64,000 nt of DNA from Natrinema gelatinilyticum (GTDB taxonomy: Archaea; Halobacteriota; Halobacteria; Halobacteriales; Natrialbaceae): NCBI RefSeq assembly GCF_024266705.1, contig NZ_CP100756.1:1612001-1676000 (forward strand), in the 5' to 3' direction. Shown one piece after another: positions 29,540-37,381 of this stretch. The notes beneath the pieces are model-generated. The model worked only from the letters and a program-made list of their open reading frames with translations, was not told the origin of the DNA and searched no databases. Position 1 is the stretch's first letter; each line of letters begins with the position of its first letter. A program made the position numbers and the translations under genes.

Positions 29540-29750
29540 TACTCACTGTCTCTGTTCTACATGTCGACCGATCGGTATCGTGGTGCTCCCCCCGCGTCGA
29601 CCGACCGCTACCGCGTCGTCACCTGAAGACCGACCTGAACCCACCGTCTCGTTCCCCATAGTCTGTTACGCGAACACGTTCGTCACCGCTTCCACTCCAT
29701 AGGAAATGGCGGACCCTTTGACGGGGCTCTCGTCCCTACTCTCAATCGTC
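29540..29750. other. Upstream region of the nitric oxide reductase gene
   Basis: About 210 bp between element A and the nor start. An alternative ATG at 29706 in frame with nor lies here. No repeat or RNA recognised. Confidence 0.35.
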
Positions 29751-32066
29751 ATGCAAGTGAAACGAAAGCAACTGGCGACGTTCCTCGCGGTGATTTTCGC
29801 CGTCAACCTCGTCGTCATGGGCGGTGGGGCCTGGCTCTCCTACGCGAACTCGCCCGACATCCCTGACACCATCGTCGGGCCCGACGGCGTACCCGTCGCG
29901 ACGAGCGAGGACGTTCGGAACGGCAAGGCGGTCTTTCAGGAGAACGGTCTAATGAACCAGGGCTCGATCCTCGGCCGCGGCAGTTACTACGACACCGACT
30001 ACACCGCCGACGCGCTCGAGTCGAAGACCGAGTACATGCGCGAGTACTACGCGCAGGCGCGTCACGGCGAGAACTATACGGCTCTCAACGCCACTGTGCA
30101 GGCGGGGATCGACGAGCGAGTCCGTCGGGAACTGCAGTCGAGCGAGTACGGTTCACGGGTCCAGTACTCCGATGCCGAGGTGTACGCTCACCAGCGGGTC
30201 CGTGAGGACTACGTCGAGCGCTACCACGCTGGCGACCGTGAACGCGGAATCCCTGAGGGACAAGTGCCGAGCGTAGAGGAGGCGGAAAACTTCGCCGATT
30301 TCGCGCTGTGGACCGCCTGGATCTCCCACACCGATCGTCCGGGCTCGGCGACGTCGTTTACCAACGACTGGCCGTATTCATCCGCCGCGGGCAACGACGC
30401 GGGCGGCCCCGTGATGATCTGGAGTGTCATCGCGATGGTGTTGTTGGTCGGCGGGGCCGGAATCGCCGTCTGGCTCTACCGGTCCGTCGAACTCCCCGAA
30501 CCCGAGGCCGACGGCGTTTCGATCCCCCATCCGAAGGAGATCGATCTGACACCGAGCCAACTCCTGAGCACCCGATTCGTTCTAATCGGCGCGGTACTGT
30601 TCGTCGCCCAGACGTTCCTCGGTGGGTTGCTCGCCCACTACTACGTCGAGCGCGACGGCTTCTTCGGCCTCCACGAGGCCATTGGATTCGACGTCCTCCA
30701 GTGGCTACCGTGGTCGATCGCCCGGACCTGGCACATCGACCTCGGTATCCTCTGGATCTCCACGATGTGGCTCGGTGCGGGTCTCTTCCTCGCGCCGCTT
30801 TTGACCGGCCGCGAACCGCCGAAACAGGCGCTGTACGTGAAGGCATTGATCGGCGCGTTACTGGTCGTCGCCGTCGGCGCACTGGTCGGCATCTGGCTCG
30901 GCATCAACAACGTCTTCGGCGGACGGCTCTGGTGGCTGGTCGGCAACGAGGGCCTCGAGTATCTCGAGATCGGCCGCGTCTGGCAGGTGGGCCTGTTGGT
31001 CGGCTTCCTCGGTTGGACCGTCCTCGTCGCCCGCGGCTTCAAGCCGCTGCTCGACCGCGAGCCCCGGTACGGGCTGGCACACATGATCGTCTACGCCGGC
31101 GGCTCGATCGGCTTGCTGTTTACCGCCGGATTCCTCTACACGCCGCGGACGAACATCGTGGTGACGGAGTTCTGGCGCTGGTGGGTCGTCCACATGTGGG
31201 TCGAAGGCGTCTTCGAATTCTTCATCCTCGTCGTCATCGCCCTGACGCTGGTCTCGATGAACCTCCTGCGGAAGACGGCCGCCGAGAAGGCCGTCATCTT
31301 CCAGGCTGCCCTCGTCATGGGCAGCGGGATCATCGGCGTCTCTCACCACTACTGGTGGGCCGGCCTCCCCGAAGTGTGGCTCCCGATCGGCAGCGTCTTC
31401 TCCACCCTCGAGTTCATCCCCCTGCTGTTCATCCTCTACGAAGCGCTCGGCCAGTACCGGGCGATGGACACCGCAGGAACCGACTTCCCCTACCGAACGG
31501 CGTTCTACTTCATCGTCGCGTCGTCCGTCTGGAACTTCTTCGGCGCCGGCGTGATCGGCTTCTTCATCAACCTCCCGATCGTCAGTTACTACGAAACCGG
31601 CACGTACCTCACCGTCGCCCACGCACACGGCGCGATGTTCGGTGCCTTCGGCCTGCTCGCGATGGGGATGGCCGTCTACATCCTCCGGGTGACCACCCGC
31701 GACGCTCGCTGGACTGACCGACGCCTCCGCTGGTCGTTCTGGCTCTGTAACGTCGGGCTGGCGCTGATGATCTTCCTGTCGCTGCTCCCCGTCGGCTTCC
31801 TCCAGCTCGAGACTGCCTTCACGCAAGGATACGCGGCCGCTCGCAGCCTCGAGTTCTACAACGGCGAACTGATCCAGACCCTGTTCTGGCTGCGGATGCC
31901 CGGCGACACGCTGTTAATTCTCGGTGCCATCGTCTTCGCCTGGGACGTCGCTGCAAAGCTGCTGTTCCAGCGGAAGGCGACCGCCGAGGAGACGCGCGAT
32001 CACGTCATCGCAGATCGGCTCATCGCGGACCGAACATCCGTCGAGCCGGTCAGCGACGACGACTGA
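29751..32066 (+). CDS. norZ: Quinol-dependent nitric oxide reductase (qNOR)
   Basis: Single-subunit NO reductase of the haem-copper oxidase superfamily (771 aa), reducing 2 NO to N2O with quinol electrons in the cytoplasmic membrane. After one N-terminal membrane helix comes the qNOR external domain (AVFQENGLMNQGSILGRGSY), then a second anchor and the 12-helix NorB core. Ligands seen: HMWVEGVFEFF (FeB His and the NOR-specific Glu, about 481), SHHYWW (about 531) and HAHGAMFG (haem His pair, about 623). MQVKRKQLATF is the family's usual start; ATG 29706, 15 codons upstream, is the alternative. Gene symbol by family analogy. Confidence 0.93.
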   Translation: MQVKRKQLATFLAVIFAVNLVVMGGGAWLSYANSPDIPDTIVGPDGVPVATSEDVRNGKAVFQENGLMNQGSILGRGSYYDTDYTADALESKTEYMREYYAQARHGENYTALNATVQAGIDERVRRELQSSEYGSRVQYSDAEVYAHQRVREDYVERYHAGDRERGIPEGQVPSVEEAENFADFALWTAWISHTDRPGSATSFTNDWPYSSAAGNDAGGPVMIWSVIAMVLLVGGAGIAVWLYRSVELPEPEADGVSIPHPKEIDLTPSQLLSTRFVLIGAVLFVAQTFLGGLLAHYYVERDGFFGLHEAIGFDVLQWLPWSIARTWHIDLGILWISTMWLGAGLFLAPLLTGREPPKQALYVKALIGALLVVAVGALVGIWLGINNVFGGRLWWLVGNEGLEYLEIGRVWQVGLLVGFLGWTVLVARGFKPLLDREPRYGLAHMIVYAGGSIGLLFTAGFLYTPRTNIVVTEFWRWWVVHMWVEGVFEFFILVVIALTLVSMNLLRKTAAEKAVIFQAALVMGSGIIGVSHHYWWAGLPEVWLPIGSVFSTLEFIPLLFILYEALGQYRAMDTAGTDFPYRTAFYFIVASSVWNFFGAGVIGFFINLPIVSYYETGTYLTVAHAHGAMFGAFGLLAMGMAVYILRVTTRDARWTDRRLRWSFWLCNVGLALMIFLSLLPVGFLQLETAFTQGYAAARSLEFYNGELIQTLFWLRMPGDTLLILGAIVFAWDVAAKLLFQRKATAEETRDHVIADRLIADRTSVEPVSDDD

Positions 32067-32371: not shown

Positions 32372-33718
32372 TCACAGCGCTTTCTTGTACGCCTCGAGCG
32401 TCCGTTCGACGTCTTCCTCTGTGTGACCGTAGCTGACGAACTGACATTCGAACTGGTTTTGCGAGAGGAACACCTCCTGGTCTTTCATCTGGCCCCAGAA
32501 GATGCGCCGCCAGCGCTCGGTCTCGGCGTTTTTCACGTCGGCTGCGTTTTTGGGACAGTGATCGTAGCGCGGGCAGATCGGCTCCTGCCGGCAGCCGGCG
32601 TCGCACTGCTCCTCGAGCGAATCCGGACCGGGCCCTTCCCGCGTGAAGATCACTTTGAACATGCTATCCGTTCCGGTGACGGTGTAACTCGGGGCCTGGT
32701 CGGCGACGATTTCGGTCAGCCCGTGGCGGAGTCGGTCGCCGAGGTCGTTGACGTGGTCGTAGACGTCGTTTTCCGCGGCGAACTGGAGGGTCTCGAGGCC
32801 GGCGGCCATCGTGATGGGGTGGCCTGAGAAGGTGCCGGCCTGGAAGACGTCGCCCGAGGGCGCGAAGTGCTCGACGATCTCGGCACGGCCGCCGATCGCG
32901 CCGACGGGGAAGCCGCCGCCGACGATCTTTCCGAAGGTCGTCAGATCGGGGGTGACGCCGAACTCGCTCTGTGCGCAGCCGAGGCCACCGACGCGGAAGC
33001 CGGTGATCACTTCGTCGAAGATCAGCAGGGAGTCGTGTTCCTCGGTGATTTCTCGTACGAACTCGTGATACCCCTCCTCGGGGTAGACGATGCCGTAGTT
33101 CCCCAGGATCGGTTCGGTGAGAACGGCCGCGATGTCGTCTCCGTGCTCGTCGAAGACACCGCGAATCGCGTCCTCGTCGTTGAACGGCACGGGAATCGTG
33201 TGATCGGCGAACGACTGCGGGATACCGGCCGACGACGGCCGTGGGTTCTCGGCGTCGCCCTCGACCAGCGTCGACTCTTGGGCGCCGTGATAGCCACCCT
33301 GCATGACGACGATTTTGTTCCGGCCGGTGTACCCCCGCGCGAGTCGAACGGCGGAGACGGTCGCCTCCGTCCCGGAGTTGACGAACCGGATCTTCTCGAC
33401 GCTGGGGACGTGTCGGACGACGAACTCCGCGAGGTCGACTTCGACCGGCGTAGGCGTGCCGTACATCGGCCCTTCACTCGCCGTCCGCTGGATAGCCGCT
33501 CGCACCTGCTCCGGGAGGTCGTGGCCCAGAAGCAGCGGGCCGAGCCCCATGACCCAGTCGATGTATCGGTTGCCGTCGACGTCGATGACGTGGCCACCTT
33601 CCCCTTTTCGAACGAAGAACGGATACGGCTCGATGGCCGCGCGAACCGCGGAGTTGACCCCGCCGGGCATCACCGACAGTGCCCGGTCGTAAAGACGTCG
33701 AGAGTCCTCGTGTTTCAT
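32372..33718 (-). CDS. hemL: Glutamate-1-semialdehyde 2,1-aminomutase
   Basis: HemL (448 aa) converts glutamate-1-semialdehyde to 5-aminolevulinate with pyridoxal phosphate, first committed step of tetrapyrrole synthesis. Family blocks: [29 protein letters not shown], the PLP Asp in [14 protein letters not shown], and the Schiff-base Lys in [16 protein letters not shown]. Unusual is a Cys-rich insertion near residues 370-395 ([17 protein letters not shown], four Cys as C-x3-C-x6-C-x5-C), not part of the bacterial enzyme. The ATG at 33718 matches the family start. The TGA touches the right end of element C. Confidence 0.95.
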
Positions 33719-33779
33719 GTGTGGTCGGTTTTCTCGGCGTCTTAATAGAGGTGGTGATGCGCGTGGGACGTTCGGCGCA

Positions 33780-34004
33780 TCATCGCCGGACGTGTTCCCG
33801 ATGGTGCGCGGGAATAACGAGGTCGACGGTCCCGAGACGAAACGCCTCCTCGCGCAAGACGCCGAATTCGTACCGAAACACGGGCCGCGTCCGAGTCCAG
33901 GACCGCGTCGCACGGTCGAACACGCGGTGTACAGCCGGTCGCGCCGGCAGTAACTCGTCCGTCTGGAGCGGACCTGACGCCCGAATCGATTCGATCAGAG
34001 TCAC
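33780..34004 (-). CDS. Uncertain short ORF between hemL and amt
   Basis: A 74-codon frame, GTG start, on the hemL strand. It reads protein-like ([18 protein letters not shown], then [19 protein letters not shown]) and the same frame upstream of the GTG continues protein-like to a stop at about 34042, so it could be the truncated remainder of a longer gene. It is rich in Arg, unlike typical haloarchaeal proteins. No family recognised. Confidence 0.3.
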
Positions 34005-34134
34005 CAGTCGCCAGACGACTGTGTTTCCGATGACCGGGTTCTAGAGGTGGCGATTCCCGGCGGAAACGGAGAGATGGCAGCCGCGAGAGGGGTCGTGGTG
34101 CGAACCGTCGATGGGCGAGCCGCGATTCGCGACC

Positions 34135-35814
34135 TCAGACCGCGTCGGGGCCGGTCTTGCCGGTGCGAACCTGCGTCGCGGCTTCGACCGGCAGGACGAA
34201 GATCTTTCCGTCGCCCGGTTCGCCAGTTTCGGCGGCCTCGCGGATGGCGGTGACGACCTCCTCGGCTGGGATATCGGCGACGACGCATTCGATCTTGACC
34301 TTCTGGTGGAGGTCGACCGTGTACTCCTCGCCGCGCCACTGGCCCTTCTTCGCGGGCTGGGAGCCGCGACCGGAGACGTTGGTGACGGTCAGCGACGGTG
34401 CGCCGGCTTCGGCGAGTGATTGCTTGATCTCGCCGAGACGGTCCGGGCGAACGATCGCGGTGATCATCTTGATCTGGCCGTCGTTCGGCTTCCCCCCATC
34501 CGTACGGACGATCCCGTCGGCGCTGCCGCCGTCGGTGGCGATGTCGGGCTGTCCGAACTCCGGGTAGGTGTCGACGCCGTGTTCCGAGACGTCGAGACCG
34601 TCGCGCTCGTGTTCGGGCGTGACGCGTGCCTGGCCGACGGCCTTGAGCGCGCCCCAGATCGCGGCGGTCGCGGCGATCGTCCAGCCGGCGATGACGACGA
34701 CGCCGATGACCTGGGCCACAAACACGTCCATACGGGTGCCGCTGACCCCGCTCATGTACTCGGGCGAGGCGACGACCGGGAGCAGCACTGTCCCGAGGAC
34801 GCCGGCCGAACCGTGGACCGGGAAGACCGCACAGACGTCGTCGATCTGGAGGTGGTTCTCGACGAACCCGAAGACGAGCGGCAACTGCGCGCCGGCGAGA
34901 CCGCCGACGAGGAACGCGCCCCACCAGGTCGACGCGTGGGGGATCGCGGTGATGCCGACGAGACCGGCCAGAAGTCCGTTCGCGACGTACAGCGTGTCGA
35001 CTTTCCCGGTCTTGACCCACGCGACGAGTCCGGCCCCCATCGCCCCGCAGGCCATCGCGATCGTCGTGGTCATCGCGACGCGGCCGACGTAGGCGAAGTC
35101 GCCGAGCGCCAGCCCTTCGTCGGTGATCGAGACGACCTCCGCGGCAGTACCGACGTTGAAGCCGTACCAGCCGAACGCGAGGATGAGCGTCCCGAGCACG
35201 GCGAAGGTCAGCGAGTGACCGGGGATGACGTTCGCGGAGCCGTCCTCGTTGTAGCGCTCGAGGCGCGGTCCGAGCATCCAGGCGGCGGTGAGTCCGGCGA
35301 TGCCGCCCATTCCGTGAACGATCATCCCGCCGGCGAAGTCGTCGAAGACCACGCCGTTGAACGAGAGCAGTCCGCCCGACCACGTGAGGCCGGTGACGAC
35401 CGGGTATATAACCGCCGCCAGCAGGAAGGTGTACGCCACGTACGCGCGAAGCTTCGCGCGACCGGCGACCGCCCCCGAGACAATCGTGGCAGCCGTCATC
35501 GCGAAGACGGCGCTGAACAGCCAGCCGACCCAGTCGTTGACTTCGCCGACGTCGAACCCGGGAGCGAAGCCGCCTCCCGAGACGAGACTATCCACTCCGA
35601 CGCCGATGAGGAAGAATACCGTCACGCCGACCGACCAGGTCAGCAGGTTCTTCGTCAACTGGTTCGCGACGTTCTTCGAACGCACCTGGCCCGCTTCGAG
35701 CATGGCGAAGCCGGCGTGCATGAAGAAGATCAGGAACGACACCAAAAGGACCCACACGAGGTTGATGCCCTCCGCGAGCACCTCCACGTCTGACTGGAGC
35801 AGCGTCGGTTCCAT
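34135..35814 (-). CDS. amt: Ammonium transporter fused to a PII signal domain
   Basis: A 559-residue fusion. Residues about 1-400 are an Amt/Mep/Rh channel with 11 membrane helices; signatures [34 protein letters not shown] and [13 protein letters not shown] are intact. After a linker of about 45 acidic residues, residues about 446-559 are a complete PII (GlnB/GlnK) domain: [17 protein letters not shown], the T-loop with RGEEYTVDL (Tyr of the uridylylation site conserved) and [17 protein letters not shown] normally binds free to Amt and closes it when nitrogen is sufficient; here it is tethered. A strong SD (GGAGGTGG, 35822-35829) fixes the start at 35814. Confidence 0.93.
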
Positions 35815-35894
35815 CAGGCGGCCACCTCCGTCGTGCTCGTTCTGCCACCGCTGCATTGTAGACGCTTGTCCACGTCTAGGCCAACCGACTTCAT
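35814..35894 (-). CDS. Possible 26-aa upstream ORF of amt
   Basis: ATG at 35894, TGA at 35814-35816, so the stop overlaps the amt start as TGATG. The peptide ([18 protein letters not shown]...) is not acidic and is unlike anything I know. The overlap with the amt start makes translational coupling possible, but it may be chance in the leader. Confidence 0.25.
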
Positions 35895-35933
35895 GATTTT
35901 CTTCTGAATCACGTTTGAAGCCGATGTACTTGG

Positions 35934-35943
35934 ATTATATAAT
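35934..35943 (-). promoter_or_regulatory. TATA box of amt
   Basis: ATTATATAAT, symmetrical, about 120 nt before the amt start; this predicts a leader of roughly 95 nt, long for haloarchaea, with an SD at its end. Directly upstream is a near-palindrome GTTAGCGTTAAC (about 35946-35957) that could be an operator, for example of a nitrogen regulator. Confidence 0.45.
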
Positions 35944-35957
35944 GGTTAGCGTTAACA

Positions 35958-36349
35958 ATTGGTCGTAAATCATGGGGTAATAGGGACAACCGAACAAATC
36001 TAGAGGTAGTTTAATGTATATAAGGGTATCTGGTTGTACGGATTTTTCGACCTGTGGTTGTATATTCTTTCTTTGTAAACCCGAAACAACTCGAGGGAGA
36101 CAGTGATTTCGTCCGTGTGGCCGTTATTGAGTGCTCGAGAACCGGACGGCGCTCACGCGCGGCATATATTGCCACTCGTGAGGATGGAAACGGAATCAGA
36201 TGGACGTTCGTCCGAATGGGGACGGAAACGGTCGCGTTCGTCTCAGCAGCGGTGTCGAACCCGGCGATGCGGGTGTGTGGTTCGGACCGTTCGCCGGCGA
36301 TGGCGCTTCTCGACGATGTGTCGCTCCGTCAGTTCGCGGCTGATTGGGC
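35958..36349. other. Intergenic region between hemB and amt promoters
   Basis: About 390 bp; AT-rich near amt, GC-rich near the hemB stop. Frames on both strands lack protein-like character. No RNA or repeat recognised. Confidence 0.35.
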
Positions 36350-37381
36350 CTATCGGCGGCGATCGGCGGACAGTCGCCCTGCGACGTCCTCGGCGAAGTA
36401 CGTCAGAATGAGATCAGCACCCGCTCGCTTGATCGAGAGGAGCGACTCGAGTGCGACCTCCTCGAGATCGAGCCAGCCCTTCTCGGCGGCCGCGTGAAGC
36501 ATCGCGTACTCGCCGGAGACGTTGTAGGCGGCGACGGGATGGTCGAATTCCTGACGAACGGCGCTGACGATATCGAGGTACGGCAGCGCGGGTTTGACCA
36601 TCAGGACGTCGGCACCCTGTTCGGCGTCGAGACGGACTTCCCGCAGGGCCTCCCGGGAGTTCGCGGGGTCCATCTGGTAGTGTCGTCGATTACCGAACGA
36701 CGGCGCGCCGTCGGCGGCGTCACGGAAGGGGCCGTAGAACGCGCTCTCGTACTTGGCCGCGTAACTCATGATCGGGACGTGTTCGAATCCGTCGCGATCG
36801 AGCGCATCGCGGATGACGTCCACCATCCCATCTATCATGCCGCTCGGTGCGACCATGTCCGCACCAGCGCGGGCATGAGAGACGACGATCTTTTCGAGGG
36901 CCTCGAGCGTCGCGTCGTTGTCGACGGTGAGCGTCGGCTCGCAGACCGGGCCGTTCTCGACGACACCGCCCTCGCGCCGCAGTTCTTCCTCGAGTGGCCC
37001 GCAGTGACCATGGTCCGTGTACTCGCAGAGACAGACGTCGGTGATGACGTACGCATCGGTTTCGGCGGTAATCCGTCGGAGCGCGTCCTGAATGACGCCG
37101 TCCTCCGCCCAGGCGCGCCTGCCCTCGGGGTCTTTCGATTTCGGAATGCCGAAGAGCATGACCGCCTCGACGCCGGTCTCGAGGACTTCCTCGACGCGGT
37201 CGACCGCGTCACCGATCGGCACTCGCTCGTGGCCCGGCATCGACTCGATCGGGACACGTTCGTCGGTCGTCGCATCGACGAACACCGGTGCGATCAGGTC
37301 GGCGGGCTCGAGATTGGTCTCGCTGACCAGCCCGCGAACCCGATCCCGTCGGAGTCGCCGGGGTCGGTGTGTGAGATCCAT
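36350..37381 (-). CDS. hemB: Delta-aminolevulinic acid dehydratase (porphobilinogen synthase)
   Basis: HemB (343 aa) condenses two 5-aminolevulinate molecules to porphobilinogen. The Zn-binding cysteines are in [14 protein letters not shown] (about residues 115-128), so this is a zinc-dependent type. The two active-site lysines are in [17 protein letters not shown] (about 200) and [12 protein letters not shown] (about 255). The terminal LIRY-type end is replaced by [15 protein letters not shown]. With hemL, hemC, cobA and hemD in the same window and on the same strand, the route from glutamate-semialdehyde to precorrin-2 is almost complete here. Confidence 0.96.

Follow-up and report, generated by a model that had tools for sequence, protein, structure and literature searches.

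PII proteins are commonly regarded as mobile hubs that visit many targets. At Amt ammonium channels, the T-loops of ADP-bound PII plug the channel exits, and Mg-ATP together with 2-oxoglutarate withdraws them (PMC8395244). The C-terminal region of E. coli AmtB makes contact with GlnK, and in Haloferax, where the GlnK-AmtB complex is known and haloarchaeal amt and glnK have been described as gene pairs, GlnK binds AmtB following ammonium shock (all PMC3831643). In a 2013 survey of gene fusions, Marsh et al. list AmtB-GlnK, on STRING fusion evidence, as a pre-fusion complex with its genes fused in at least one genome, and state that its fusion would not conserve assembly order (PMC4009401). A full-text literature search, with most subscription journals outside it, returned no study of a natural Amt-PII fusion, and no biochemistry of a fused protein. 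We describe such a fusion from the haloarchaeon Natrinema gelatinilyticum and its relatives, which probably works as a self-gating ammonium channel.

The fused gene lies in a window of 64,000 nucleotides (contig NZ_CP100756.1, positions 1,612,001 to 1,676,000). Its features are, in window positions:

35935-35942, minus strand: TATA box, 30 nt upstream of the GTG of a short ORF
35814-35912, minus strand: short ORF of 32 codons with a GTG start and a TGA stop that overlaps the Amt ATG (TGATG)
34135-35814, minus strand: fused amt-glnK (Amt-PII) ORF of 559 aa (ORF reading and Pfam)
34564-35757, minus strand: Amt channel domain, residues 20-417, with 11 transmembrane helices (Pfam, alignment, AlphaFold model and fold search)
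34552-34626, minus strand: cytoplasmic C-terminal region of Amt, residues 397-421, counterpart of the GlnK-contacting region of E. coli AmtB (conservation)
34483-34596, minus strand: disordered linker, residues 407-444, about 38 aa (pLDDT under 50)
34492-34506, minus strand: linker motif RTDGG, residues 437-441 (alignment)
34138-34473, minus strand: PII (GlnK) domain, residues 448-559, ferredoxin-like fold (Pfam, match to solved PII, model)
34309-34365, minus strand: T-loop, residues 484-502, with R494 (Arg47, the pore plug), Y498 (Tyr51) and Q486 (Gln39)

The frame is open from 35856 to the stop at 34135 without a stop between the domains, and matched PF00909 completely (1-399, E 3.9e-97) and PF00543 over positions 2-102 of 102 (E 8.1e-27). 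This bears out the initial annotation, in which an Amt channel and a full PII domain with a T-loop tyrosine (Y498, PII Tyr51) and the GDGKIFV motif (residues 534-540) had been read as one polypeptide; the 1:1 supply of channel and regulator that it proposed is fixed by the construction of the single chain. An in-frame ATG at 35856 would give an alternative product of 573 aa. On sequence grounds 35814, the start given in the initial annotation, is the better one, because a Shine-Dalgarno-like GGAGGTG stands just upstream and relatives align from the first residue. The channel half has the complete PF00909 domain, the 11 transmembrane helices and the twin-His pore of the Amt/Mep/Rh family (H167 and H334, invariant in an alignment of 50 fused relatives) and is predicted to conduct. 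C-terminal of the Amt domain, Pfam found PF00543 alone and no catalytic signalling domain of the kind present in Amt-histidine kinases (Amt-HK) or Amt-diguanylate cyclases (Amt-DGC). In the AlphaFold model, the transmembrane helices are followed by a short helix in the cytoplasm, residues 407-444 are disordered, and PII has its ferredoxin-like fold with a mobile T-loop; the fold search matched AmtB, Amt-1, entries of the E. coli AmtB-GlnK complex and Haloferax GlnK2.

The promoter 5' of the fused gene is conserved and consists of the TATA box and, 30 nt on, ACGTGATTCAG, whose GTG opens the short ORF. The spacing suggests that the transcript begins at or very near this GTG and is leaderless. 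Among loci with the ACGTGATTCAG motif, 65 of 68 have an ORF of 23-34 codons with a stop that shares 1, 4 or 7 nt with the Amt start. In the set of 67 loci kept, for which a length of 20-36 codons was an inclusion criterion, the frame of the short ORF is open in all 67 (32% expected on shuffling), compared with 8/67 and 16/67 for the other frames. No sign of amino-acid selection on the short ORF and no conservation of the peptide sequence was seen at these 67 loci. In a general scan, upstream ORFs of this overlapping kind precede the start of 107 of 126 fused amt genes and 49 of 76 separate ones, compared with 14 of 84 hemL and 4 of 41 hemB starts. The spacing, and a frame that stays open over a peptide that is not conserved, suggest that ribosomes may be handed from the short ORF to amt by termination-reinitiation. 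Further 5' of the fused gene, at about 36010-36030 on the minus strand and likewise in Natrinema loci, stands another conserved TATA-like element, CCTTATAyACATTAAAyCTrC, possibly a second promoter. The fused gene has hemB (ALAD) on one side and, on the other, a class-III aminotransferase gene that is hemL by position and similarity (window 32372-37381), and a gene for a single-subunit nitric oxide reductase, NorB, with a cytochrome c-like domain and COX1 (29706-32066, plus strand), adjoins this hem/amt cluster. At 80 amt loci of relatives (L033-L112), hemL, hemB or norB was matched in 69, and hemL and/or hemB flank the amt locus in most relatives; norB is also near the cluster in several Natrinema and Halopiger loci.

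The PII half is a complete PF00543 domain with a ferredoxin-like fold, T-loop and B- and C-loop motifs, and matched 41 solved PII sequences. The closest, 4ozj, aligned over the whole length of the domain (E 1.3e-55). Residues Q39, K58, G87-K90 and R103 of the ATP/2-oxoglutarate site are all present in the N. gelatinilyticum protein, which is predicted to bind both ligands. In 127 fused sequences Q39, R47, K58 and G87-D88-G89 are invariant, K90 is found in 126 and R103 in 125, and the conservation of these ligand-site residues and of Arg47 equals that in 76 separate sequences. Ser at position 38 and Gln at position 101 are shared with the unfused PIIs of haloarchaea, and Tyr51, present here, is replaced by Phe in 16/127 fused proteins. 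The canonical C-terminal residue of PII is kept as the chain end in 126 of the 127, and the present protein ends exactly at PDAV. In methanogen GlnKs, 2-oxoglutarate binds properly only if the C-terminus is free, and a tag at the N-terminus is less consequential (PMC8395244). Since PII is joined by its N-terminus and its C-terminus is free, the topology of the fusion would preserve ligand control.

In the N. gelatinilyticum genome (5.44 Mb, three contigs, 99.99% complete), a single PII match exceeds the cut-off and a single Amt match is present, and the two lie within the fused ORF. The initial annotation, which had seen no separate glnK nearby, thus holds genome-wide, and a second glnK or amt elsewhere was rejected by the same whole-genome search. 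Two genes of the glutamine synthetase family are present. The GlnD-type uridylyltransferase domain PF08335 is absent from this genome and also from the Haloferax volcanii control; GlnK of Haloferax mediterranei has been reported to be uridylylated (PMC3831643).

Between the two domains, the order is Amt C-terminal region, which is retained in the 50-sequence alignment of fused proteins, an acidic tail ending in RTDGG, PNDGxI and the first PII strand. R437, D439 and G440 are invariant in these 50 fused relatives and other linker positions vary. The motif R.DG was found in 123/127 fused linkers and 52/76 unfused Amt tails; RTDGG likewise occurs in unfused Amts, and PNDGxI in the N-terminal tail of some unfused GlnKs. 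Judged by alignment, the fused linker is the sum of the C-terminal tail of a separate Amt and the head of a separate GlnK. The acidic character noted at first is real in that the linker is net acidic, but it is not special, as C-terminal tails of unfused haloarchaeal Amts are equally acidic. The gene order is Amt to PII in all pairs. In 80 separate pairs, the glnK start precedes the amt end by 8 nt in 36 and by 4 nt in 30, close to the arrangement known from translationally coupled archaeal genes (PMC6728339, PMC10666635), and such overlaps are found in both deep clades of haloarchaeal Amts. As the reading frames are arranged, an indel of one or two bases, and little else, can probably join or split the two genes.

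On the basis of these features, we propose that the natural Amt-PII fusion probably works as a self-gating channel. As is usual in the family, three chains would form an Amt trimer, and the three PII domains one PII trimer beneath the cytoplasmic ends of the pores. Under nitrogen plenty, with 2-oxoglutarate low and ADP bound to PII, the T-loops would insert with Arg47 leading and block the pores; in nitrogen shortage, Mg-ATP and 2-oxoglutarate bound between PII subunits would withdraw them and open the channel. The disordered linker would hold the released PII beside the channel and allow fast re-closing without rebinding from the molar-salt cytoplasm. A polymer estimate from the 38 linker residues gives an effective PII concentration in the millimolar range, on the order of 10 mM. 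At high salt the AmtB-GlnK complex of E. coli dissociates (PMC4009401), so a tether may help in a molar-salt cytoplasm. Life at high salt does not depend on tethering, however, since many haloarchaea thrive with amt and glnK as separate genes coupled in translation. Sensitivity to ATP/ADP and 2-oxoglutarate had initially been suggested as an effect of the fusion, but it is already a property of unfused GlnK-Amt pairs. The change brought by fusion would be that PII can no longer depart for other targets: as the only PII of the genome, it would be a private gate instead of a mobile hub, at the likely cost of travel to glutamine synthetase.

The initial annotation proposed a survey of haloarchaeal genomes; this recovered both fused and unfused forms and identified the fusion as the normal form in the family instead of a peculiarity of one genome. 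Fusion was scored when both domains were in one ORF or, in the family survey, when both matches reported equal ORF length. ORF length alone is unsafe as a criterion, as it can mislead in these G+C-rich genomes, and a fusion call on that basis was rejected for genome G267, in which a 599-aa open frame over PII is out of frame with its Amt. Among 125 genomes of the same family, PII was found in 117 and Amt in the identical 117, so that joint presence or absence is strict in 125/125; the eight without PII are exactly those without Amt (G043, G362, G208, G101, G032, G047, G409 and G414). The two genes are fused in 111 of the 117 and form a separate pair in six, and in 97 family genomes the fused gene is the only copy of each. 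Both forms also occur in other haloarchaeal families. Of the 80 top-ranking loci in public genomes, 78 carry the fusion, and the remaining two are from Haloferax, with two separate pairs each. Outside the class (haloarchaea), there was no stop-free fusion among the matches listed from 393 genomes of the phylum; in some other, methanogen-type members of the phylum, glnK follows amt in frame but one or two stops interrupt the reading. Some haloarchaeal loci are tandem arrays of a separate amt-glnK pair of Amt clade I directly followed by a fused gene of clade II (L059, L066, L069, L102, L113, L114, L143, L144 and L146), and an extra PII gene is directly 3' of the fused gene at L119, L121, L122 and L127.

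Clades I and II are the two deep haloarchaeal clades of a tree of 140 Amt domains, separated by a long and well supported branch. The PII tree has too few columns for resolution. Clade I consists almost entirely of separate pairs, with one verified independent fusion (L190, genome G003), which has a longer linker with repeated DGG units (VRADGG, LRTDGG, LRTDGG). In clade II there are 74 fused forms, 22 separate ones and, at its base, a further group of four that are separate. Separate pairs are nested among fused ones, and a single exclusive clade of the clade II fused genes was rejected by an AU test (p 3e-8, quick tree). At least 15 changes between the fused and separate states are needed on the tree, in a count free of direction, and the best supported branches make five of these unavoidable. 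Such repeated change suggests a modest selective difference. This nesting, and the 8- or 4-nt overlap already present in 66/80 separate pairs, where a small indel can join or split the genes, would also fit a neutral event that joined two genes coupled in translation, without functional consequence. We regard that explanation as tentative and less likely than a functional one, as the fused form is retained by 111/117 genomes of one family and is dominant in one Amt clade and almost absent from the other, though separate pairs overlap in both. The invariance of R437, D439 and G440 also speaks against neutrality, although RxDG is common in unfused Amt tails as well.

It is unlikely that the fused gene still produces free PII, by linker cleavage or internal initiation, and so supplies other targets with a mobile form. 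Such a soluble form would have a use, as GlnK activates the glutamine synthetase of Haloferax (PMC3831643), also in vitro (PMC10799026); the linker, predicted to be disordered, could be cut, and most fused genes have a Met codon at PII position 3. This Met, however, occurs in unfused GlnKs too and gives way to Leu or Val in some of the fused genes, and initiation at this codon would shorten strand 1. Within the 25 codons that precede PII, an in-frame ATG was found in only 12/127 fused genes and any ATG, GTG or TTG in 40/127; an internal start was thus rejected, as no start codon before PII is conserved in the 127 genes, and no conserved protease site is evident in the linker. Somewhat less likely still is the reverse direction of signalling, in which Amt is the sensor and PII the output of a transceptor that signals external ammonium inward, like Amt-histidine kinases or Amt-diguanylate cyclases. 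The solved structures nearest to the channel half are such proteins (the sensor Amt 6eu6 and the receptor Sd-Amt1 8qj3/8qj4; PMC5764959), but may owe that rank to being the closest Amt sequences. PII has no catalytic output, and its pore-plugging and effector-binding residues are kept as in ordinary GlnK, which fits control of the channel by PII.

An extension of the self-gating reading to an Amt-PII-GS unit, in which T-loops leaving the pore in nitrogen shortage would recruit or activate glutamine synthetase at the channel mouth, we consider improbable. Compared with the T-loop residues by which M. mazei GlnK1 contacts glutamine synthetase, the fused PIIs carry Lys42, Gln45 and Trp46; in our presumed register, Gln45 and Trp46 are the letters of the M. 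mazei GlnK2 that does not bind glutamine synthetase, but Haloferax GlnK2 has the same letters, and Haloferax GlnKs activate the enzyme in vitro (PMC10799026). If true, such a unit would bring ammonium import and assimilation to one place and confine PII control of glutamine synthetase to the membrane. A sequencing error or missed stop, the refutation proposed in the initial annotation, fails because the same open frame and invariant linker motif are common to more than 100 independent genomes.

The separate AmtB-GlnK systems (E. coli 2NS1/2NUU; Haloferax AmtB1/2-GlnK1/2) share with the Amt-PII fusion the same domains, the Amt C-terminal region, Arg47 and the ATP/2-oxoglutarate site, and the 3:3 stoichiometry of the separate complex is expected for the fused protein. 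Unlike them, the fused protein is one polypeptide, from which PII never dissociates away, and it contains the sole PII of the genome. About a hundred species with their only PII tied to one channel thus offer a test of what a PII that cannot leave still does. The mosaic of fused and separate forms among close relatives provides natural matched pairs for asking why subunits fuse, and a test of tethering as compensation for weak complexes in molar salt. The archaeal order amt-glnK places PII on the cytoplasmic C-terminus of Amt and leaves the PII C-terminus free, which differs from the E. coli complex. The AmtB N-terminus is extracytoplasmic. A fusion in the bacterial order glnK-amtB would therefore place PII outside the cytoplasm, a constraint which suggests why the archaeal gene order allows the fusion and the bacterial one should not.

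GlnK2 of Haloferax mediterranei (4ozj/4ozl/4ozn) has the same T-loop as the fused PII but is soluble and stand-alone; 4ozn, from the same series as 4ozj, is the form with ATP. In Ks-Amt5, an Amt-histidine kinase, and in Sd-Amt1, the cytoplasmic C-terminus of an Amt channel likewise bears a regulatory domain. Their C-terminal domain is a signalling output, whereas that of Amt-PII would be the channel's own inhibitor. The AmtB-GlnK entry of Marsh et al. (2013), in the sections drawn on here, comes without organism name, anatomy or distribution (PMC4009401). Compared with all of these, the Amt-PII fusion is a lineage-wide covalent variant of a known complex and not a new kind of system.
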